From Bacteroidia bacterium (GTDB lineage Bacteria > Bacteroidota > Bacteroidia > Bacteroidales > Paludibacteraceae), in the NCBI GenBank assembly GCA_009929375.1, contig SAAO01000031.1:1-52713 (forward strand): 52,713 bases of DNA, in the 5' to 3' direction. Shown one piece after another: positions 358 through 43,923 of the stretch. A model generated the notes under the pieces. The model was not told the origin of the DNA. It worked only from the letters and a program-made list of their open reading frames with translations, and searched no databases. The stretch's first letter is position 1. Each line of letters begins with the position of its first letter. Made by a program: the position numbers and the translations under genes.

Positions 358-3300
358 TTATTGGATGGCTAATTTGTGTTTAGAAATTATGTTTCCGTCA
401 TTTGAAATCACTTTAAGAACGTAGATTCCCCCTGAAAGCTCACCGCATTGAATTTTGGCTGTATTTCCATTGAATGGTTTGCTGATAATTGTTTGTCCGC
501 TCATGTTTGTGATCTCAATAATGGAATTTTCAGATATAGGTTTTGAAAATTCTATATAGAAATGATCTCCTGCCGGCTGCGGATAGATTTTTACAATTTC
601 CTCTGCTTGAGATTTGGGTAGTGAACTGTAACAATTGGTTGTTTTTACATTGATCTTATTTGAAGTCATGCCGTCCGATTCGAAGCAGGCACTTTGAGTG
701 ATATTCATTATATCGACAGTCTGTGGAGTTCCGTTTTTGCTGAAAATGACATTCACTGTTTTAACGCCTGCATTGAATGTGTAGCTATACCAGTCTGCAG
801 TTTGAGCCTGCATTTGTGGGCCGGGCCATGTGCTGAAAATATTTCCTCCACTATTCCATGCCCAAATATTTACCGCTGCTGAGCCCCATTCCTGCGGCTT
901 TTTGAACGAAACAGTGATTGGAGTGATGTTCGGATCGACTACATTAAATGAAGCCGTGTAAGTGGCATCACTTTCGTTATTCTGATTGTCGGCAATGACG
1001 AAGTTGAAATATGCGTTTGTGGTAGCTGCCTGGTAGACAAGTTTTGTCGGGTCTGTGTATTTTTCATTAATTACTGCCGGAACTGAATTATAAAGTAACT
1101 GACCGTTTTCGGGTAACTTTATTATACTAATATATCCAAACTGGTTATTGAGAGGACTCTTAAATCCCAAATCGACCATGCTGAATGTGTAACTATCGTT
1201 CTGATTGATGGTTTTGTTGATATTTTGCGCTGTAGGATTGTTTGTAGCAGCAGTTTCAATAGTAATTTTATAATCGTTTCCTCCGTTGTTATCCCAGTTG
1301 CTTTCGTGTTTTATTACGAAATTGAGTTCGCTTACAGCCTGCGCAGGGTTGTTGAACGGGCCAAGTACGACCTGCCAAACGCCATCGTAGTTTGTGAAAG
1401 GTGTCTGAACGGCTCCACCGGTTGCAACCACAGTACCTGAAGGCTGATAAGCAGCATTTGGCAAAGTCCAGTTATTCACAGCCCAATGAAGGCGGGAAGC
1501 TGCAGTTGCATTTTTACAGCTAATGATGATATTTTCGTTTGTTTTCGGTTTTTCAGGTGTCCAGCTGACATCGGGGTTAGTGCTTCCGCCGTTGCTTCCA
1601 TCACCGCTTTCGATATATACATGCTGAATAGGACTTCTGAATATATTTCCTTTCATGTCTATAGCTTCCACATAATAGTCAACAAGTGTGTCTTTCAGTC
1701 CTGTTATTTCAGCATAACACAAATCAGCCTTCGCCATGGGTTGAATAAAGAAATTCAGCTCAGAATCATCAGTTGGATCGGCTTTCATTGGTCGGCGTGT
1801 CATTTCTATTTCGCTCCACTGACTTACTTCGCTGCCTCCAGTGTAAGTGTCGTTTTCATTACTTTCTACAGGATTTACGCCATCTTTATCGGTTCGGTAT
1901 TTCAGTTTTACAGACGATAGTCCGTTCACGTCGTACGCATAAGTCCACACATGAAAATCGGATGAATAATTTACTTTCTTGTAGCCTGTGGTTGGTCCGA
2001 AGCCAGTCGATCCCGGATTGTAAGGAAAGCGTTGAGGAATAAACACAGAAGGAGCTGTGTTGTCGGTTCCGGGGTTTGCCTGAATCACTTTCAGAGCATA
2101 ATCTATGGCTATATTGCCGGTAAGCGATGGTTTCACTTCCATGTCTTCGGCTTTCCCGTAATACATAAAACCTGAATTTAACCCGCCAAAATAAAAATGC
2201 CATGCTTTTTCGGCATTTGTGGCAGCACTACCACCATCGGCTATATATTGTATTCTCAAATTATTTCCTTCGAGATCTTCGGCCATGTTCACATAGTTTT
2301 CGGTAGTTGTAATTACTGCCCAGTTTCTTGCATCTTCTGTCCAACCTTCAGGGTCAAACCGATAATTTGTTTTGCTGTAAAGTGGCCATAACCAATTGAT
2401 AAATTGTGGATGACCCCAATCGCTTTCAGCATTTACCCATGCTCCATCTTCCACTCGAACAATATCGGAAGAGGGCACCGGATTGTCATTCAGAAACTGT
2501 TGAATGGTTGTAGGCATATATCCCGCACTGGTAGCCGCATGACTAAAACTTGTGACAGCTTCGTTGTAATATGAACTTCCACCTCCCCAGGCATTATCTC
2601 CGTCGTGTGCCAAAAGCACAATGCTTGGATGTGTTTCATTACTGAAAGGGGCTATTCTTGATGCAATGTCGCTAGTGTTGGCTCCGCTGTAACCATCCAC
2701 ATAGCTTATATAATTACACATTGGAATCACATCGATTTTGTATGCTGTGCCGGTTGCTGGGTCGATATACTGAGCTTTGTGTGCCTGATAGCAATATGGA
2801 GCCGCAAGACGACTTCCCCGTCCATCGATGGTCGCATCAAACCAGTTCAGACCTTTCGTATTTACAAGGTCTGCACGATTAGGAGCATCTACATTTCCAT
2901 TAATATTGTACGGGTGTTCATAGTCGGAAAGAGTTCGTGCAAGATGGCTGTTTGCAATGACCGACCACTCGATATTGCAGGTGACCAGTGCCTTGATAAT
3001 ACGTTCAGAAAATGCACATTCGGCGGGCCAGTAACCTTTGGATACAAATCCATAGTATTTGTTGGCTACATATTGATGAGCTTTAATCTGCTTGATGAGC
3101 GTGCGTTCGCTGACGAGTGGCGATAAAGCATGATCGTAAGTAAAACCAACCACATCCAGACGCGGAAAACCATCAGTTGTTTTCCAAGATATGGCTTCTT
3201 TGTATGGATTCATCCACGAAGCAGAGTATCCCCATTGATTTTTCGCTCCCAACGATTGCAGATTTTCCATTAATCCTGCTGAAATACTAAGCTGTGCGCC

Positions 3301-3639
3301 AGCATTGGGCAGGTTGCGAATACTATTCACTGCGTTACGTGGTGACGATTGATATGCCTGAACGCGATCGGGTTTCGAAAAAATTTCTTCGAGATTATTG
3401 GTGGGATGTGAAACGGTACTACCCGGATAACGGTTTTGTCCGCTCACTTTGAGTCGGTGCGATTCTTCGGCAAATTGCTTAGTGTCGGCCTTGTCTTTAC
3501 TTTTGTCGGCCCAGTAAACAGGCTGATCCATGTGCCATAAATAGCTTGTATGAACCTTTTGAGCATTGACGCTGATACTAAATGTAGTCAGGAAAAGAGT
3601 GCTCAGCACTATTGATACTGATTTGCGGATTGAATTCAT
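358..3639 (-). CDS. secreted GH57-family glycoside hydrolase with CBM26-like module and T9SS sorting domain
   Basis: A 1093-residue protein probably acting on alpha-glucan outside the cell. A signal peptide (MNSIRKSVSIVLSTLF...VNAQ) is followed by a GH57-like barrel with a HMDQP motif near its start, a WPAEC segment holding the candidate nucleophile Glu207, and an AHDGD segment with candidate acid/base Asp346. Next come Ig/Fn3-like regions, a module typical of starch-binding CBM26 (NIWAWNSGGNIFSTWPGPQ), and a C-terminal sorting domain starting IYPQPAGDHF. I chose the ATG at 3639, not the upstream frame start at 3732, because a -7 box (3666-3673) lies between them and the signal peptide starts at 3639. 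It appears to be a single-gene unit. The substrate is inferred from family and module only. Confidence 0.85.
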   Translation of the reverse strand: MNSIRKSVSIVLSTLFLTTFSISVNAQKVHTSYLWHMDQPVYWADKSKDKADTKQFAEESHRLKVSGQNRYPGSTVSHPTNNLEEIFSKPDRVQAYQSSPRNAVNSIRNLPNAGAQLSISAGLMENLQSLGAKNQWGYSASWMNPYKEAISWKTTDGFPRLDVVGFTYDHALSPLVSERTLIKQIKAHQYVANKYYGFVSKGYWPAECAFSERIIKALVTCNIEWSVIANSHLARTLSDYEHPYNINGNVDAPNRADLVNTKGLNWFDATIDGRGSRLAAPYCYQAHKAQYIDPATGTAYKIDVIPMCNYISYVDGYSGANTSDIASRIAPFSNETHPSIVLLAHDGDNAWGGGSSYYNEAVTSFSHAATSAGYMPTTIQQFLNDNPVPSSDIVRVEDGAWVNAESDWGHPQFINWLWPLYSKTNYRFDPEGWTEDARNWAVITTTENYVNMAEDLEGNNLRIQYIADGGSAATNAEKAWHFYFGGLNSGFMYYGKAEDMEVKPSLTGNIAIDYALKVIQANPGTDNTAPSVFIPQRFPYNPGSTGFGPTTGYKKVNYSSDFHVWTYAYDVNGLSSVKLKYRTDKDGVNPVESNENDTYTGGSEVSQWSEIEMTRRPMKADPTDDSELNFFIQPMAKADLCYAEITGLKDTLVDYYVEAIDMKGNIFRSPIQHVYIESGDGSNGGSTNPDVSWTPEKPKTNENIIISCKNATAASRLHWAVNNWTLPNAAYQPSGTVVATGGAVQTPFTNYDGVWQVVLGPFNNPAQAVSELNFVIKHESNWDNNGGNDYKITIETAATNNPTAQNINKTINQNDSYTFSMVDLGFKSPLNNQFGYISIIKLPENGQLLYNSVPAVINEKYTDPTKLVYQAATTNAYFNFVIADNQNNESDATYTASFNVVDPNITPITVSFKKPQEWGSAAVNIWAWNSGGNIFSTWPGPQMQAQTADWYSYTFNAGVKTVNVIFSKNGTPQTVDIMNITQSACFESDGMTSNKINVKTTNCYSSLPKSQAEEIVKIYPQPAGDHFYIEFSKPISENSIIEITNMSGQTIISKPFNGNTAKIQCGELSGGIYVLKVISNDGNIISKHKLAIQ

Positions 3640-3665
3640 AGGACCAGAGGATAAAGTTATATCCG

Positions 3666-3673
3666 CAAATATA
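3666..3673 (-). promoter_or_regulatory. -7 box of the GH57 gene
   Basis: TATATTTG on the minus strand fits TAnnTTTG, 26 bases upstream of the ATG at 3639. No clear -33 element. Confidence 0.5.
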
Positions 3674-3774
3674 AAGCAATAGTGATTTATTGTGTTTGCG
3701 ATATTCCGAAGAATAGCTTTAAACTTCTGCAAACGTTTGTTTTACAGCGTTAAGCAATTGTAGAAAATAAAAAT

Positions 3775-13218: not shown

Positions 13219-15543
13219 TTAATTTATAACCATAATTTTAGTAACAGCACTTTGGGTGCCGTCGCTGTTTGCACATATAACAAGGTAAATGCCGGTATTT
13301 ACTTTACGTCCGCGCACATCTTTGCCATCCCATGTTGCAATACCACCATTCGAAACAGTTTCAGAAATCAGATTCCCGTTCAAATCAGTAATTTTTACCT
13401 GAGTGTCAGCAACTAATCCTGTTATTGTAATAATTCCGTTATAATTTTCACGAACCGGATTCGGATATGCATGAACGTTGCTGAATGTTTCTGTGGCATC
13501 AACAGCATCACTTTGATAAGATATCAATCCTTTGCCTGTCCCGATATACACTTCTCCACTGACAGGGTTTATGGAAATTGATAAAATGTCGTTTGATAAC
13601 AAAGGACTATTTTCTGTTGTGAAGTGGTGTATGGTTTTTTGTCCGTTTTCTGACATCAGGAAAACACCTGAAGTTTCTGTTCCCAACCATTTACGATTAG
13701 CACCATCAATAGCAATAGCTTTAATTTTTTCGTCTTTAAGCAGATAGTCTGCCAGTTCAGTTCCATCATTTCTTGGAATTTTCACCCTTGTACAGGTATA
13801 CCCTTCATCAAAAACTTTTGAGGTGTTATAAAAAAGCAGCGGTCCCTGTTCGGTGCCGGCCCAGATAACTCCGTCTTTATCCTGTGCTAAACAAAGAATA
13901 TTTGCCGGGGTGATGGTATTTCCTTCTTCGTCAGCATCTCTGAAATTCGAAAAGAATTTCGATTTGTCATCAGAATTGTCTGTGATTGTCCCATTGTCGT
14001 CATACACGAAAATTCCCGGTTTGTATCTGACTGAGGCAATCCACTTTTGATTCTGATTCAGATTCGATATTAAGAAATCGCCCATAGTCGGATTAGTTGC
14101 TCCTGTGAATCTCAATTGATGCCAGCTTCCTGTTGCATCAAGAATTTTTATTGCATTTCCTGCTCCTGAATTTACGAAAAATAAATTACCATTTTTGTCA
14201 AATACTGCGCCATCTAGACGTATGTAATTGAAGGGGTTGCCATCTACTACTGTTTCAATAGTACTGTTTAGATGATTATACCATTTGTGAAATTCATTAT
14301 TTCTGAATTCGTATAGTCCTGTTCCATAGGATGTAACAAAAAAATGACCATTGTCAGACGGATCTACAGCTACGTTCATGAAATCTTTAACACGCTTACC
14401 TGTCACAGGTTCAATGTCTTTTCCAAGTATATTTGTCCATTGGGCATTCTCAAAAATCATTAATGTGCCTTCTCTGTTGTCCTCAGATGACCAGCGACCA
14501 CCTGCTGTTACGAATAACTTGTTGCCACTGAATGTCATATCAAAAGGCCTGTTCAGGGCAGGACCTTTGGGTTTATATTGGGTTATTTTATCTTTATTAT
14601 TCTCATCAAAGGTAAGTAATCCGAAATCCCCTGCAGCAAGCCATGTAATGTCACGTTCTTCATCGTATTCTGAATCATGAACAGAGCCGATACCTTCAAC
14701 TTTTACTTTGTTAAATTGAGTGTCCGATAAGTAAAGCTGGTTATTGTCGCGGTCAACAACAAACATTTTATCATCGGAGATGTTCATATTGCTAATGTTC
14801 AAATCGTGAAAAAGTGCAGTCCATACATTGTTGTCAAAATAATAGAGTTTATTCTCTCTTTGAATAATAATTTTTCCTGCAAAGCTAACCAGCGCTTTCA
14901 GGTCGCCTGTACCGGGTAGATTATCCACAGTTTGCCAGTATTGATAGTTTGAGATGTTCGGACTATTGAGTACTGCTTTGTATAATTTATCTTTGCTAAT
15001 AGCATATATGTGGTCCTGAAAGATTGTTGTGGCAATAATTTTTAATTCAGTACCATTTGGCCCGATAAAGTAGGTGTCGGCTATTTCGCGCTTTGTCATG
15101 TTGACCACCATTATACCAAAATCGCAGGCCAGATATGCCTTATCACCATGAAAACGAATCTGATTTACGCTTTTGCTGGCGCTCATTTGTTTCATATACA
15201 GGTCAGGAATATTGATAATTCCACCTTCGGTCATAACATCAATATTGCCATTATTGTAAGTAATCAGCAGCTGATTATTTATCCTGTCATTTTCAATGCG
15301 TGAAATGTTAGCATCGCTCAGCCCGCTAAGTTTGCTGTAAAACTCCATACTGAGATCTTCTTTATCAATAGAAAAGAGCGCACCCTCGCTTACAGCAAAG
15401 ATTTTATTTTCTGATTGTGCAATCTGAGTTACCTGATTGTAGGCTAAATGTGTACGCCATTTACCCATTGCGAGCTGGGCATCGACACTAAGAAAAGTTC
15501 CTGTGAGATAAAGTAATATGATGATAAGTTTTAATGCTCTCAT
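13219..15543 (-). CDS. porZ: PorZ-like T9SS surface component (beta-propeller plus sorting domain)
   Basis: A 774-residue exported protein. Signal peptide (MRALKLIIILLYLTGTFLSVDA) is followed by AMGKWRTHLAYN, then many two-component-regulator-type propeller blades (IWAGTEQGPLLFYN, RKWLGTETSGVFLMS, GEVYIGTGKGLISYQ), and a C-terminal sorting domain from about residue 690 (VHAYPNPVREN...NTGIYLVI). This matches PorZ of Porphyromonas gingivalis, a surface partner of the PorU sortase that presents anionic LPS to it. I use the ATG at 15543; a TTG two codons upstream is less likely. It heads the glycosyltransferase cluster. A different T9SS-exported propeller protein is the main alternative. Confidence 0.72.
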   Translation of the reverse strand: MRALKLIIILLYLTGTFLSVDAQLAMGKWRTHLAYNQVTQIAQSENKIFAVSEGALFSIDKEDLSMEFYSKLSGLSDANISRIENDRINNQLLITYNNGNIDVMTEGGIINIPDLYMKQMSASKSVNQIRFHGDKAYLACDFGIMVVNMTKREIADTYFIGPNGTELKIIATTIFQDHIYAISKDKLYKAVLNSPNISNYQYWQTVDNLPGTGDLKALVSFAGKIIIQRENKLYYFDNNVWTALFHDLNISNMNISDDKMFVVDRDNNQLYLSDTQFNKVKVEGIGSVHDSEYDEERDITWLAAGDFGLLTFDENNKDKITQYKPKGPALNRPFDMTFSGNKLFVTAGGRWSSEDNREGTLMIFENAQWTNILGKDIEPVTGKRVKDFMNVAVDPSDNGHFFVTSYGTGLYEFRNNEFHKWYNHLNSTIETVVDGNPFNYIRLDGAVFDKNGNLFFVNSGAGNAIKILDATGSWHQLRFTGATNPTMGDFLISNLNQNQKWIASVRYKPGIFVYDDNGTITDNSDDKSKFFSNFRDADEEGNTITPANILCLAQDKDGVIWAGTEQGPLLFYNTSKVFDEGYTCTRVKIPRNDGTELADYLLKDEKIKAIAIDGANRKWLGTETSGVFLMSENGQKTIHHFTTENSPLLSNDILSISINPVSGEVYIGTGKGLISYQSDAVDATETFSNVHAYPNPVRENYNGIITITGLVADTQVKITDLNGNLISETVSNGGIATWDGKDVRGRKVNTGIYLVICANSDGTQSAVTKIMVIN

Positions 15544-15649
15544 ATTCAAGTAAGCTGATTTCGGAGTGAGTTTTTCTTAAATTATTTGTATAGAATAAAT
15601 AACTGAAATTTAGCGGTTTTATTTTATATTCGTTCAAAAACAGTGTGAG

Positions 15650-38295: not shown

Positions 38296-41200
38296 ATGAA
38301 ACGAATACATTTATTAATGATTGCTGTCGGTGTCCGTAGCAAGCTTCTGTTTCTCTTTGTATTATTCATTACTCAAAACATTTTTAGTTTAACGTACAAT
38401 GTCACCGTACCTACAGGCACGAAAGCTTGCTACTTTGCCGGTGAAATCATTGGTTGGAGCCATCAGGCAATGACTAAAGTGGACGAAACCCACTACACAA
38501 TTTCGTTTGCAAATGCTAACCCTACACAGCCATATAAGTATTGCTCAGGGCCGGATTGGGGTTACGAAGAGCTTGATGCTGCAGGTGTGCCTATAGCTAA
38601 CCGAACCTACAATGTTGCCGATGTGGTTATCAAGTGGCGAGCTGTTTACGAACCGGGAGCTGTAGTAACTCAAATTGCCAATACGTTGAAAGTATCTTCC
38701 GGAACCGTTGTACGATATTCGTTTAACAGCACTTTTATTGGAGCAAGAACGGTAGATGTTTGGTTGCCTGCAGGATATTCGGCATCGAAAAAATACGCCG
38801 TACTCTATATGCACGACGGACAAATGTTATTTGATGCGACATCCACCTGGAATGGTCAGGAATGGAAAGTGGACGAAACCCTGGCGCAATTAATGAGTTC
38901 AGGCGAAATAAAGGATGTAGTAGTGGTAGGAATCTGGAACAGCAGCAACCGTTATGCCGAGTATTATCCCGAAAAATCGATGGATTATCTGCCTGCCAAT
39001 ATCAAAACGGCTAAATCCGCCGAAATGAATAACGATCCGAAAGCAGATGAATACCTGAAATTTATTGTTGATGAAGTAAAACCGTTTGTCGATAAAACTT
39101 ATTCAGTAAATACAGATGCCTCGAACACCTGTGTTGCAGGCTCAAGTATGGGCGGATTGATTTCGTGGTATGCCATGTGTGAATATCCGGCTGTTTTTGG
39201 CTCGGCCATTTGCATGTCGACTCACTGGGGAGTTTTGAACACCGATGATGCTTCCATTCCGGATTCGTTCCGGAAATACCTGCTCAGTAAACTGCCGTCA
39301 CCAACCACACATGCAATTTATTTCGATCACGGAACGATTGGGTTAGATGCCAATTATCCGCAGAATCAGGCTTTGGCTGATACTATCGTGCGGTTTAAAG
39401 GTTATACTACAACAAACTGGAAAACGCAGGTATTTACCGGCGACGACCACAACGAAACCTGCTGGGCAAACCGATTCAGTATTCCGGTAAAATTCATTAT
39501 TCCGAAGAATATTATTAATAAATCTCTGATTCTGAATACCGATCAATTAAACGGCAAAGGAATTTTATACAACACAACTGTGCCGGTTTCCTGGACTTCG
39601 TCTTCGGTACAAAATATCAAAATTGAATACTCGGTGAACAATGGTACGAACTGGAATCTGATAGCAGCTTCGGTTCCGGCAAGTCAACTGACGTACAACT
39701 GGACAACACCCTCTTACACAACCACCACTGCATTAATTCGTATTTCAGATGCGTCGGATAATTCATTAAGTTCGGTAAGCAGTGTTTTTACCATAGCGCC
39801 GGCAATAACCAACATTAGCTTTTCGGTGGATGCCAGTGTGCTTATATCGGAGAATAAATTCAATCCGGCAACTGACAAACTCTATATTCGCGGATCGTTC
39901 AACAATTACGAATTAACCCATCGGTTGAAAGCCGGCAACAACAACATTTATTCGCTAACGATTCCGCTGGCTTCGAACATATACATCGACTACAAGTATT
40001 TCAGTACAGCTGTCAACGCTGATAACACGGGTTGGGAAAACAATTTCCCCGCGAGCTACAATGGCAACCGGCACATAAGCTTTGGCACCAATCACCTGAC
40101 ACTCGCAACTGTGTACTACAACGATGTAGATATGAATCTGAGCAAAACATCCGATCATTTTACGGTGATTTATAATGTGCAGGATCAGAATGCGATTGAC
40201 TATTTTCTGCAACGCATGGAAATATTGCATAAAATCGTTTCGGAAGCTCTTCAGGTTACTCCTACCGAAAAGACCACCATTTATCTGTACAAAGATCTGG
40301 CACATTTGCATTTGGCACAGGGCTATCCCGAAAATTCCGATTGGTCGACAGGTTCGGCTTACGGAAAAAATCTGCTGATTATGCTTTCGCCAGCTAAAAT
40401 GGGAATGAATGATGCGCTCGGACTTTGTGCTCATGAATATACGCATTGCCTGAATGCCACCAAAACGAAAGTCACACTACCAGCATGGCTCAACGAAGGC
40501 GTGGCTTGCTATTTCGGCAGAAACTTTTCCACCAAAGACTGGATTAAATCGGTGATGGACGTCAAAGGCAAACCCGATATTGCCACCGTGTTCGACACCG
40601 ATATGGGTTATGCATATTCGTCGATTGTGGCCTATTACATTATCAAAACCAAAGGAATGGCTGCTATGGCTAAATTCGTTGAAAATATGAATTATGCTGA
40701 TATTGGTTATGCAAATCTGGCAGCATTACAAACGGCATGGCATGCGTTTCTGGACACATATCTGAATACGCAAACCTCTGTAAACGTAAAATTTTCGGTA
40801 AACATGGCCGATATGATTGCATCGAAATTCTTCATTCCGGGCGCCGATAAAGTGTATGTAAAAGGAGATGAGTATGGTCTCGGCACAAAAGAAATGACGC
40901 TTGAATCAGGAACAATTTATTCGGTAACAATACCTGTGAATACCTACTCGCTGAACGAGTATAAATTTTATACCAATTCAGCAACTGCGCCAAACAACGG
41001 ATTGGAACTCAACACCGACGAAACAGTGTCGGGTTACCGTTTACTGGATATCACCAACAGTGCAGTAACGCTGAGTGCTGTTACTTTCAACTCATCGGCA
41101 ATGGCAGCCATCCAGGGAGTGGATATGGCGAAAATTTATAACAAAATTGAAGTATTGAGATACCACGGGAAAATATGGAACAATCCGGCATTCAGTGCAT

Positions 41201-43923
41201 TCAAATACTCATTCAAATTATTATCTGCAACCGAATATCAAAGTCAGAAACCAACCGATGCTTTTGCTTTCGATGCCGGATTTGTAGCTACCGATGGAAC
41301 CATCAATATAAGCGAGCCAACTACCACAGAACAAAAAGCGGTTTTTGCAAATACCACACAAGTGGCGGTTTATTATCTGTGTCAGTCGTATATGTATTAT
41401 TTTTATCAAACACGCAATTTGCCTTTGTTGTTTAAAGTAGGTTTTCCTGTTTTCGAAGCCGGAATTCTTCCGAATGATGCCACTATCAAAACGGCCGTTA
41501 ATGCTTATGGTGGCAGCTTCTCGTCGTTCGATGTATTGAATAACAGAACAACTTTTATCACCAATAATGGATTGGCTGTTGCCGGAGCTTTTGCCGAGTT
41601 TATGAGCATTTTCAAAAACTGGGGTTACCCCAATATTACCACCATCAATGCTTCAGGCTTCGATGTGATGAACGGCTGGTGGAATGTGGATAATCTGGCA
41701 GGGCTACTCGCCGATTTCAATCGTTATACTTACAGCAGATTCCTGCAACCTGACGAAAGTTTACGGGTGAAACTATTTCTTGAAACCAATCATTTTAAAT
41801 TCTACACCCGTCCGGTGGATGGCGCATTGAATTTTCCGTATTTTTCGGAAGTAACGGAACCTGCGTATGTGGAATACAGTAATAATTTTGGAGTAAAACA
41901 TGGCGAAAAATTAAGCTACTTCACGCTACCTGCCTGTGTCGATGGCGAACTGGAAGGATCGGGTTGTAATGGTCAACCACCTGTACGAATTACCGGGGGA
42001 ACCGCTTGGTCGTCGGGAATGCATTCTACCTGCGCGTTCTCAGCGGATCAATTGTCAATGTTTTATCACATGAACCGCCACGAACTGGCACATGCTTTTC
42101 AGGGAATTTTACCTCAGGGAACTGTTACCGCATGGTTAAACGAAGGTTTTCCTCAGTTTTGCGCTGCCGGCCCGCTAACCGAAACATCGCTCAATGAAAT
42201 GCGCCAGAACGGTATTGACTGTATGGCCAACGCCATCAAGTATTTTGGTCACCGGCCAACATACGAGGAAACACGCATTTATCCATCGCCCGATTATGGG
42301 TACTATACTCTGGGGCAAATTTTTATCGACTATCAGTACCGGAAAGGTGGATATCCACTGGTCAAAGCCATACAGGTAAATGATCTGGTAGCATATCAAT
42401 CGTTAGGTTATACATCAGCACAAGCTTTTCTCGACGATTTTTATTTCGACTTTGATGTGCGGGTACAACAGTTGCCAATTGCCACTTTAATAAATCCTTT
42501 AGCAGATAAAGACGAAACTAATTCAACGGTAAATATAAGCTGGACACCACTAAAAGCTGACATAAAACTCAATGTATCGGTATCCGTTGACGATGCAAAA
42601 ACATGGACGGAAGTAGTGACCCGAACCACAGGCACATCGTGTGTATGGAATTCAGGAAGTCTGTCGACCCGTTTTTATATCAAAATATCAGCTCCTGATA
42701 ATTTGGATGTCTCAACTACTTACGGACCGTTCATAAAGACAGACTTGACGAAAATCAATATCATTTCGCCCACCTTAAATAATTATGTGATTAGTGGCGA
42801 CAGCACTGCAATTAAATGGGCATCAACCGGAATTCAAAATATCAAAATTGATTACTCACTTAACAATGGTGCTAACTGGACAACAATTACGAATAATACT
42901 TCGACAGCTGCCAATATATATAATTGGATTGTTCCTACTGAAATTTCCGGAAGTTGCAAACTGCGTTTAACCGATATAACAAACAATGCAAATTACAGCC
43001 AGGGCGATGCATTTACCATTGTAAAACCAAACGAAGTGGGCGGACCATATTTGTACGACAAAAATACGTTGTTGCTCTTGCACTTCGACAATGACCTGAA
43101 TAATCGCAGCAAGGCAGCACCAAATGCGGTGGGCGATATACTTAATCTGACAAGCGAAGCATCGACCATTTCAAATCTTGGCTTGAGTTATAAAAACAGT
43201 TCATCACTTTCTGTACCGCATCATGCCAATCTGAATCTTACCGGTGACTGGACCATCGAAGCCTGGGTAAAACTAACCGCCTACAATGCCAACAGTAATA
43301 TGTATATTTTCTGGAAACCAGGTGATACAGATGCGTATTTGTCAAATTATTCACTCGAAGTGAATCCGTGGTGGGGAAATGTATTTTATGGATATTATTT
43401 CTCTGAATTGAAAAATAGAATTGGAATTACAGGAAGTAGTCCTACACTTAACGAATGGTATCATATTGCTTTTATGAGAGATACTAAAAAGAAGCAAATC
43501 AAGGTTGTTGTACGCGATAAAAACAGAATACAGATTTCGGAAACATCAGCAACTTATACTGACGGAATGACACTTTTAAATACAAAAGATTTATTATTAG
43601 GTACAGGACTTAGTGGATATATAGATGAGGTACGTATAAGTAATATTGTAAGAACATTTATAAAAACGGATATTGATAATCCGCATACCAATCGGAAAGC
43701 TGAAATTTATCCAAATCCGGCGTCAGGTTCATTTGTGCTTCGTTCACTTTCCGGTAATTGTCACATCAATATCATGTCGGTGAATGGCAAAGTACTGTTG
43801 AGTAAAAATACAGAAGGTTCTGTCACCGAAGCAATCGATATTTCTAATTATGAGAAAGGAATTTATATTGTGCAGCTTATTCAGGAAAACAGAACATTTA
43901 CAACGAAATTGATAATTAAATAA
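38296..43923 (+). CDS. giant multidomain T9SS cargo: esterase plus three gluzincin-like repeats
   Basis: 1875 residues, secreted. Signal peptide to about residue 31, then a CBM20-like module (32-125) and a Fes/esterase-D-type alpha/beta hydrolase (about 128-405; nucleophile Ser284 in GSSMGG, His385). Next come an Ig-like domain (410-500) and a CBM-like module (503-615), then metallopeptidase-like domain 1 (HEYTH 713-717, Glu734 in WLNEG). A second CBM-like module (826-940) leads to a region where YLCQS (1027-1031) replaces HExxH, then domain 3 (HELAH 1262-1266, Glu1283 in WLNEG). Two Ig-like domains, a LamG-like domain (about 1590-1790) and a T9SS sorting domain (about 1803-1875) finish it. 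Domain identities are by motif and layout; the substrate is unknown. It is flanked by repeats on both sides. Confidence 0.8.
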   Translation: MKRIHLLMIAVGVRSKLLFLFVLFITQNIFSLTYNVTVPTGTKACYFAGEIIGWSHQAMTKVDETHYTISFANANPTQPYKYCSGPDWGYEELDAAGVPIANRTYNVADVVIKWRAVYEPGAVVTQIANTLKVSSGTVVRYSFNSTFIGARTVDVWLPAGYSASKKYAVLYMHDGQMLFDATSTWNGQEWKVDETLAQLMSSGEIKDVVVVGIWNSSNRYAEYYPEKSMDYLPANIKTAKSAEMNNDPKADEYLKFIVDEVKPFVDKTYSVNTDASNTCVAGSSMGGLISWYAMCEYPAVFGSAICMSTHWGVLNTDDASIPDSFRKYLLSKLPSPTTHAIYFDHGTIGLDANYPQNQALADTIVRFKGYTTTNWKTQVFTGDDHNETCWANRFSIPVKFIIPKNIINKSLILNTDQLNGKGILYNTTVPVSWTSSSVQNIKIEYSVNNGTNWNLIAASVPASQLTYNWTTPSYTTTTALIRISDASDNSLSSVSSVFTIAPAITNISFSVDASVLISENKFNPATDKLYIRGSFNNYELTHRLKAGNNNIYSLTIPLASNIYIDYKYFSTAVNADNTGWENNFPASYNGNRHISFGTNHLTLATVYYNDVDMNLSKTSDHFTVIYNVQDQNAIDYFLQRMEILHKIVSEALQVTPTEKTTIYLYKDLAHLHLAQGYPENSDWSTGSAYGKNLLIMLSPAKMGMNDALGLCAHEYTHCLNATKTKVTLPAWLNEGVACYFGRNFSTKDWIKSVMDVKGKPDIATVFDTDMGYAYSSIVAYYIIKTKGMAAMAKFVENMNYADIGYANLAALQTAWHAFLDTYLNTQTSVNVKFSVNMADMIASKFFIPGADKVYVKGDEYGLGTKEMTLESGTIYSVTIPVNTYSLNEYKFYTNSATAPNNGLELNTDETVSGYRLLDITNSAVTLSAVTFNSSAMAAIQGVDMAKIYNKIEVLRYHGKIWNNPAFSAFKYSFKLLSATEYQSQKPTDAFAFDAGFVATDGTINISEPTTTEQKAVFANTTQVAVYYLCQSYMYYFYQTRNLPLLFKVGFPVFEAGILPNDATIKTAVNAYGGSFSSFDVLNNRTTFITNNGLAVAGAFAEFMSIFKNWGYPNITTINASGFDVMNGWWNVDNLAGLLADFNRYTYSRFLQPDESLRVKLFLETNHFKFYTRPVDGALNFPYFSEVTEPAYVEYSNNFGVKHGEKLSYFTLPACVDGELEGSGCNGQPPVRITGGTAWSSGMHSTCAFSADQLSMFYHMNRHELAHAFQGILPQGTVTAWLNEGFPQFCAAGPLTETSLNEMRQNGIDCMANAIKYFGHRPTYEETRIYPSPDYGYYTLGQIFIDYQYRKGGYPLVKAIQVNDLVAYQSLGYTSAQAFLDDFYFDFDVRVQQLPIATLINPLADKDETNSTVNISWTPLKADIKLNVSVSVDDAKTWTEVVTRTTGTSCVWNSGSLSTRFYIKISAPDNLDVSTTYGPFIKTDLTKINIISPTLNNYVISGDSTAIKWASTGIQNIKIDYSLNNGANWTTITNNTSTAANIYNWIVPTEISGSCKLRLTDITNNANYSQGDAFTIVKPNEVGGPYLYDKNTLLLLHFDNDLNNRSKAAPNAVGDILNLTSEASTISNLGLSYKNSSSLSVPHHANLNLTGDWTIEAWVKLTAYNANSNMYIFWKPGDTDAYLSNYSLEVNPWWGNVFYGYYFSELKNRIGITGSSPTLNEWYHIAFMRDTKKKQIKVVVRDKNRIQISETSATYTDGMTLLNTKDLLLGTGLSGYIDEVRISNIVRTFIKTDIDNPHTNRKAEIYPNPASGSFVLRSLSGNCHINIMSVNGKVLLSKNTEGSVTEAIDISNYEKGIYIVQLIQENRTFTTKLIIK

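Follow-up and report, generated by a model that had tools for sequence, protein, structure and literature searches.

The combination of a pseudopeptidase and an active peptidase in one chain is an already known arrangement. In the review PMC11266112, the M16A and M16C peptidases are described as holding a pseudopeptidase domain in the same chain as an active one, where it is critical for function, and carboxypeptidase D (M14) as a tandem of three units, the third being inactive. Here we analyse a 52,713-nucleotide stretch of DNA (contig SAAO01000031.1, assembly GCA_009929375.1; referred to hereafter as the window), in which a single intact open reading frame (ORF; 38296-43923, + strand) encodes a 1875-residue protein of a Bacteroidales-type bacterium. 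Its three gluzincin-fold domains, D1 to D3, likewise join a predicted pseudopeptidase (D2) covalently to domains predicted to be active. The two systems belong to other folds and clans and are precedents for the arrangement; the inactive unit, last in carboxypeptidase D, here lies directly before a constant partner, D3.

In anthrax lethal factor (M34), a degenerate domain related to the catalytic gluzincin domain lies at the N-terminus and serves in binding, ahead of the active domain as D2 is of D3. It is, however, a toxin with a dedicated carrier, and lacks the esterase, carbohydrate-binding module (CBM) and type IX secretion system (T9SS) tail of the protein described here; it appears as a low row in both the Foldseek and the structural searches made with D2. 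The esterase domain is like that of the CE1 feruloyl esterases (the XynZ and XynY esterase domains, CBM–CE1 enzymes), although its partner domains here would be peptidases. Taking the relatives of this protein together, we propose from their sequences that the family core is an old pseudopeptidase–peptidase pair, D2–D3, to which D1 and the esterases are optional additions. The striking features are the loss of the D2 site across the family, where particular residues have become fixed in its place, and the recurrent fusion to esterases.

The features of the gene are as follows (residues in brackets).

38296..43923, + strand: whole gene, 1875 residues in one open frame
38386..38685, + strand: N-terminal repeat domain NT (31-130), one copy here, up to 4 in relatives
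38695..39522, + strand: CE1-type esterase (134-409), Pfam Esterase, Ser284, His385
39595..39699, + strand: Ig/FN3-like stretch (434-468), Reelin_subrepeat-B
39778..40131, + strand: CBM20/48-like domain CBMa (495-612), AMPK1_CBM below cut-off
40129..40770, + strand: D1, gluzincin, predicted active (612-825)
40432..40446, + strand: HEYTH of D1 (713-717), third ligand Glu734 at 40495-40497
40765..41094, + strand: CBM20-like domain CBMb (824-933)
41107..41766, + strand: D2, gluzincin-fold pseudopeptidase as predicted (938-1157)
41374..41388, + strand: YLCQS of D2 at the place of HExxH (1027-1031), Val1048 (41437-41439) at the place of Glu
41767..42495, + strand: D3, gluzincin, predicted active (1158-1400)
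42079..42093, + strand: HELAH of D3 (1262-1266), third ligand Glu1283 at 42142-42144
43195..43656, + strand: LamG-like domain (1634-1787), Laminin_G_3
43705..43920, + strand: T9SS type A sorting tail (1804-1874), Por_Secre_tail

A constant domain pair with optional partners

Two protein searches returned 99 relatives, in which the domains were located with our own profiles. D2 lies directly N-terminal to D3 in 96 of these (one of which, P0076, retains only the last 39 D2 positions), and the remaining three (P0097, P0098 and P0099) start at or within D3. D1 is present in 35 of the 99 relatives and an N-terminal esterase in 11. A third protein search listed 120 of its 384 matches, 116 of them new; among the new matches listed, 14 carry both D2 and D3 and 102 carry neither, most of the latter sharing the DUF5018-type repeats of the query.

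Eight further relatives (P0048, P0078, P0086, P0088, P0089, P0090, P0092 and P0093) have, by their database domain lists, a PF00756 esterase at the C-terminus, which we placed after D3 by Pfam scan in six and by its GxSxG motif in the other two. The profile of the N-terminal esterases misses these C-terminal ones even at an expectation value (E) of 10, such that two dissimilar kinds of esterase are fused to the D2–D3 pair, one on each side, in 19 of the 99 relatives. The pair also occurs with GH16 (Pfam scan) beside the C-terminal esterase of P0048, and with Peptidase C10 (database domain list) in P0040.

D2 has a predicted gluzincin fold and no metal ligands

An earlier note on this DNA, made from the sequence alone, had read the middle segment as a gluzincin-like copy without its metal site, and had set a structure prediction as the test of that reading. 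The prediction did not refute it. Modelled alone, D2 reaches a pLDDT (predicted local distance difference test) of 95.4; the model presents the strands, the active-site helix and the glutamate helix in order, and its top structural matches are gluzincins, although Foldseek by itself gave no significant match for D2. The spacing between YLCQS at 1027 and Val1048 is 21, as in the corresponding D1 and D3 pairs, and in the AlphaFold2 model the helix carrying the glutamate position (730-741 in D1, 1044-1054 in D2 and 1279-1291 in D3) has it as its fifth residue each time. On this modelling we take D2 to be a gluzincin-fold domain. The note's reading of the motifs stands, whereas the alignment without gaps that it reported extends only over the motif region.

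The loss of the zinc site extends well beyond this protein. Our D2 alignment set the domain of this protein beside those of 95 relatives, 96 rows in all, and the 14 relatives of the third search brought the total to 110. The first histidine is absent from all 96 rows and, in the extended set, from all 110 domains, none of which has HExxH; its position is occupied by tyrosine in every one of the 110. Over the 96 rows, the position of the HExxH glutamate holds Leu, Val, Met, Ile, Thr or Phe, and that of the second histidine holds Ser, Ala, Lys, Leu or Thr. At the third-ligand position 11 residue types occur, but never Glu. The missing site is, on this pattern, a standing trait of the family and not, as the note had supposed, a degeneration that one copy underwent within this protein.

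D2 is nevertheless as conserved as its active neighbour: mean pairwise identity is 0.51 for D2 and 0.50 for D3, and 21 positions in each (of 234 and 227, respectively) are at least 97% conserved. Tyr1027, Glu1054 and Glu1101 are identical in all 110 domains. We therefore considered whether D2 is repurposed rather than dead, the pocket around these three invariant residues forming a new ligand-binding or catalytic site. The D3-like level of conservation speaks for such a site, as does the fact that some of the conserved positions fall on what was once the active-site helix, on the glutamate helix and on the helix 1092-1105. There is, however, no histidine among the 21 most conserved positions of D2, which argues against an ordinary His zinc site, and the conserved residues may merely stabilize the fold; we regard a new site of this kind as unlikely.

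D1 and D3 are clearly homologous, D2 more distantly placed

Comparison of the domain sets by hhalign gave 97.6% for D1 with D3, rising to 99.1% with larger clean sets (36 D1, 110 D2 and 112 D3 sequences), and 1.4% for D2 with D3, rising to 7.2%. D2 matched two outside single-domain gluzincins (L044 and L045) at 90.6%, or 93.2% in the reverse direction, and D1 taken together with these two at 82.2%. When columns of the clean sets were shuffled, 100 times for each comparison, the highest values were 6.4% for the set of D1 plus L044 and L045 and 3.2% for D3 (one of the 200 shuffle values repeats its predecessor). With the extended sets, controls using four further domains from the same protein stayed at or below 0.4%, and reversed sets at 0.2%. 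Because the matches to L044 and L045 are high and the shuffles low, the kinship of D2 with some single-domain gluzincins is detectable. The comparison of D1 with D2 gave 16.7% over 14 end columns only, falling to 2.2% with the 36 clean D1 sequences, and on sequence the support for D2 is weak and indirect. The homology of D1 and D3 is clear; D2 is tied to both mainly by its fold, its one sequence link running through L044 and L045.

The earlier note had further proposed that one ancestral unit was triplicated. We did not adopt a simple triplication, given the low values of D2 with D1 (2.2%) and D3 (7.2%) and the contrast between an optional D1 and a constant D2–D3 pair; the comparisons do not support the descent of all three from a single unit inside this protein.

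Several single outside proteins bear on these relationships. In one genome (G736) the D3-part and D2-part matches overlap on one and the same single gluzincin, L045, which may be counted as a small point, on sequence grounds, for the kinship of D2. L045, a 678-residue frame, is simpler: a CBM-like region precedes its one gluzincin (HEFVH...WLNEG), and it possibly resembles the CBM–D1 block before that block joined the D2–D3 pair. The outside domain L023 belongs with D2 by profile (95.8%). L042 and L043 are 888-residue frames with a LamG-like start, then a domain lacking HExxH, then an HEFFH gluzincin; by profile this HExxH-less domain does not belong with D2 (2.7%), and the two frames may represent a second, independent pair of one dead and one live domain.

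D1 and D3 are predicted zinc peptidases

The two intact HExxH sites that the note had described, with identical spacing, were recovered: the distance from the first histidine to the downstream glutamate is 21 in both D1 (HEYTH 713, Glu734) and D3 (HELAH 1262, Glu1283). The set of His, Glu, His and Glu is complete in all 36 rows of D1 and in 99 of 100 rows of D3 (the remaining fragment having a gap there), and HExxH is found in each of the 112 D3 segments of the extended set. HExxH with a downstream glutamate as third ligand is the mark of a gluzincin, and both domains are predicted from it to be active zinc peptidases.

Their family assignment is less direct. Both share the HExxH...WLNEG pattern with the Peptidase_MA_2 (PF13485) gluzincins (13 of the 48 records in the first listing of relatives carry PF13485), but score below its curated cut-off of 32.4 bits when excised (D1, E 3.8e-7, 30.5 bits; D3, E 0.083, 13.1 bits), and also differ from that family in standing in tandem with a pseudo-copy, D2, which has no Peptidase_MA_2 match within E 1. 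The structural-match lists, which cover D1 and D2, give collagenases, an M30 peptidase and M1 peptidases as the best matches of D1. The first-His-to-Glu spacing of M9 peptidases is longer than the 21 residues seen here, and M1 aminopeptidases have the motif HExxH-x18-E. Bacterial collagenases, which we take to be family M9, differ from this protein in that spacing, and neither a Peptidase_M9 match (at E 1) nor an activator domain was recognized. D1 and D3 do not fall among the M1 aminopeptidases either, having x16 between HExxH and Glu and no match to PF01433, which is matched below cut-off in two of the seven relatives scanned.

Failure of either domain to pass the Peptidase_MA_2 cut-off alone would fit a reading in which D1 and D3, though gluzincin in fold, either act on bonds other than peptide bonds or are inactive. 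Leukotriene A4 hydrolase, also known for a non-peptidase reaction, is among the structural neighbours. The completeness of the metal ligands and catalytic glutamate, together with the peptidases that head the D1 structural matches, makes this reading improbable.

Esterase, accessory domains and secretion

The esterase core was identified correctly in the earlier note. GSSMG at 282 holds Ser284, which like His385 is invariant in 12 of 12 sequences; Pfam places Esterase (PF00756) at residues 150-382 (E 8.7e-27), so that profile, GxSxG motif and histidine agree with a CE1-type enzyme, and the domain matches 1jjf (4.5e-9) and other structures. Asp344, Asp351 and other aspartates are invariant in the same 12 sequences and are candidates for the acid of the triad. 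The broad layout that the note had given likewise holds: an esterase, of CE1 type, and a T9SS tail are joined in one protein to three domains of gluzincin fold, of which the middle one lacks a metal site. The note knew of no described protein with this order, and among the papers listed by our literature search, at the level of abstracts, there was no description of the family or of its layout. The domain bounds of the note needed adjustment, from 945-1180 to about 938-1157 for D2 and from 1180-1395 to about 1158-1400 for D3, because the strand ETNHFKFY is part of D3.

Of the accessory domains proposed there, the LamG-like one is supported by Laminin_G_3 (1634-1787, E 7.2e-13) and the Ig-like one by Reelin_subrepeat-B, which matches two stretches of the protein and is taken as Ig/FN3-like; the linker region between D3 and LamG is read as Ig-like. 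The CBM-like assignment of CBMa has only a sub-threshold AMPK1_CBM match (E 7.7e-5), which exceeds the cut-off in the relative P0010, while CBMb shows a CBM20-like fold. The NT domain has no match in a Pfam scan. Small proteins with NT and a T9SS tail were also seen: a 376-residue frame (L002, 676-1806, - strand) looks like NT-type repeats and a tail without an enzyme domain, and in contig C37 of the same genome (about 50.7-52.0 kb; L003, L007) NT and T9SS-tail matches lie in two small frames.

The tail itself is a Por_Secre_tail (1804-1874, E 5.9e-15), as the note had recognized. With this C-terminal sorting domain, and SprA present in the genome (the machinery search being one for SprA), the protein qualifies as T9SS type A cargo; 105 T9SS-tail matches were found in the genome. 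Two more ORFs of the window end in such tails, at 358-3732 (- strand; tail 367-588) and 13219-15549 (- strand; tail 13228-13470).

Proposed function of the D2–D3 pair

We think it probable that the protein is a T9SS-exported multidomain depolymerase in which D2 is the constant, non-catalytic partner of the peptidase D3. We assign D2 this partner role because it is never parted from D3 where the sequence can be read, is equally conserved and has no metal ligands. Once secreted via T9SS, the protein would act through D3, the peptidase around which the family seems to be built, with the old cleft and adjoining surface of D2 holding or guiding the substrate, or keeping D3 in shape, much like the pseudopeptidase halves of M16 enzymes. 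D1 (with its CBM20-like domain) and the esterase would have been added to the pair; D1 and D3 would cut peptide bonds and the CE1 domain would strip acyl groups, while the CBM20-like and LamG domains may anchor the enzyme to a complex material rich in glycans or glycoproteins. That two dissimilar esterases are fused to the pair points to substrates with both ester-linked groups and protein, and a polysaccharide or acylated glycoprotein may be the target. The alternative that D2 is no more than a relic or spacer, left to drift since it lost its metal site, would account for the missing ligands and the variety at the glutamate position, but is largely refuted by the D3-like conservation and invariant residues of these sequences and by the place of D2 beside D3 in all 96 of the 99 relatives that reach it, and we consider it very unlikely.

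A bolder version of the partner role is possible but, on balance, doubtful: D2 would have lost zinc once, early, its fixed new site of Tyr1027, Glu1054 and Glu1101 serving D3 in a two-chambered protease whose dead chamber reads the substrate and whose live one cuts, repeatedly coupled to esterases for deacylation and proteolysis of the same polymer. With a dead and a live gluzincin joined in one chain in 109 aligned relatives, the family lends itself, as a natural system, to the question of what pseudoenzyme domains do.

Distribution and gene neighbourhood

The family is patchily distributed. The D2–D3 pair occurs in 5 of 60 close genomes, the source genome included, where the gene is single copy by genome search. 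Matches were found in 32 of 395 genomes of a phylum sample, both domains being present only in the source genome (G000) and G404 and the others matching the D3 part, and in 12 of 393 genomes of an order sample, with both domains in one match only in the source genome. From these samples 33 loci were fetched and ten read, four of them D3-part matches of the phylum sample; of these, L024, L026 and L027 each show a lone HExxH in a different kind of protein, and L025, apparently read in a wrong frame, was dropped. A contig scan, which used two peptide patterns only and hence undercounts, gave at least nine loci, all titled as Bacteroidota metagenome-assembled genomes (Paludibacter, Bacteroidales and Marinilabiliales, for example). 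A relative labelled Paludibacter sp. is 91% identical over residues 600-1480.

The ten neighbouring ORFs encode CorA, G6PD, a 6-phosphogluconolactonase-type protein, a HAD protein, an M20 peptidase, TetR, two SufBD-type proteins with an ABC ATPase, and a pseudouridine synthase. We looked for a polysaccharide locus among them and found none, nor did three related loci (10 ORFs) show any glycan-degradation gene, so that these neighbourhoods give no hint of the substrate. In a metagenome-assembled genome labelled Paludibacter jiangxiensis, an AbiEii-type nucleotidyltransferase (L017, 6470-7486, + strand) is encoded upstream of the relative.
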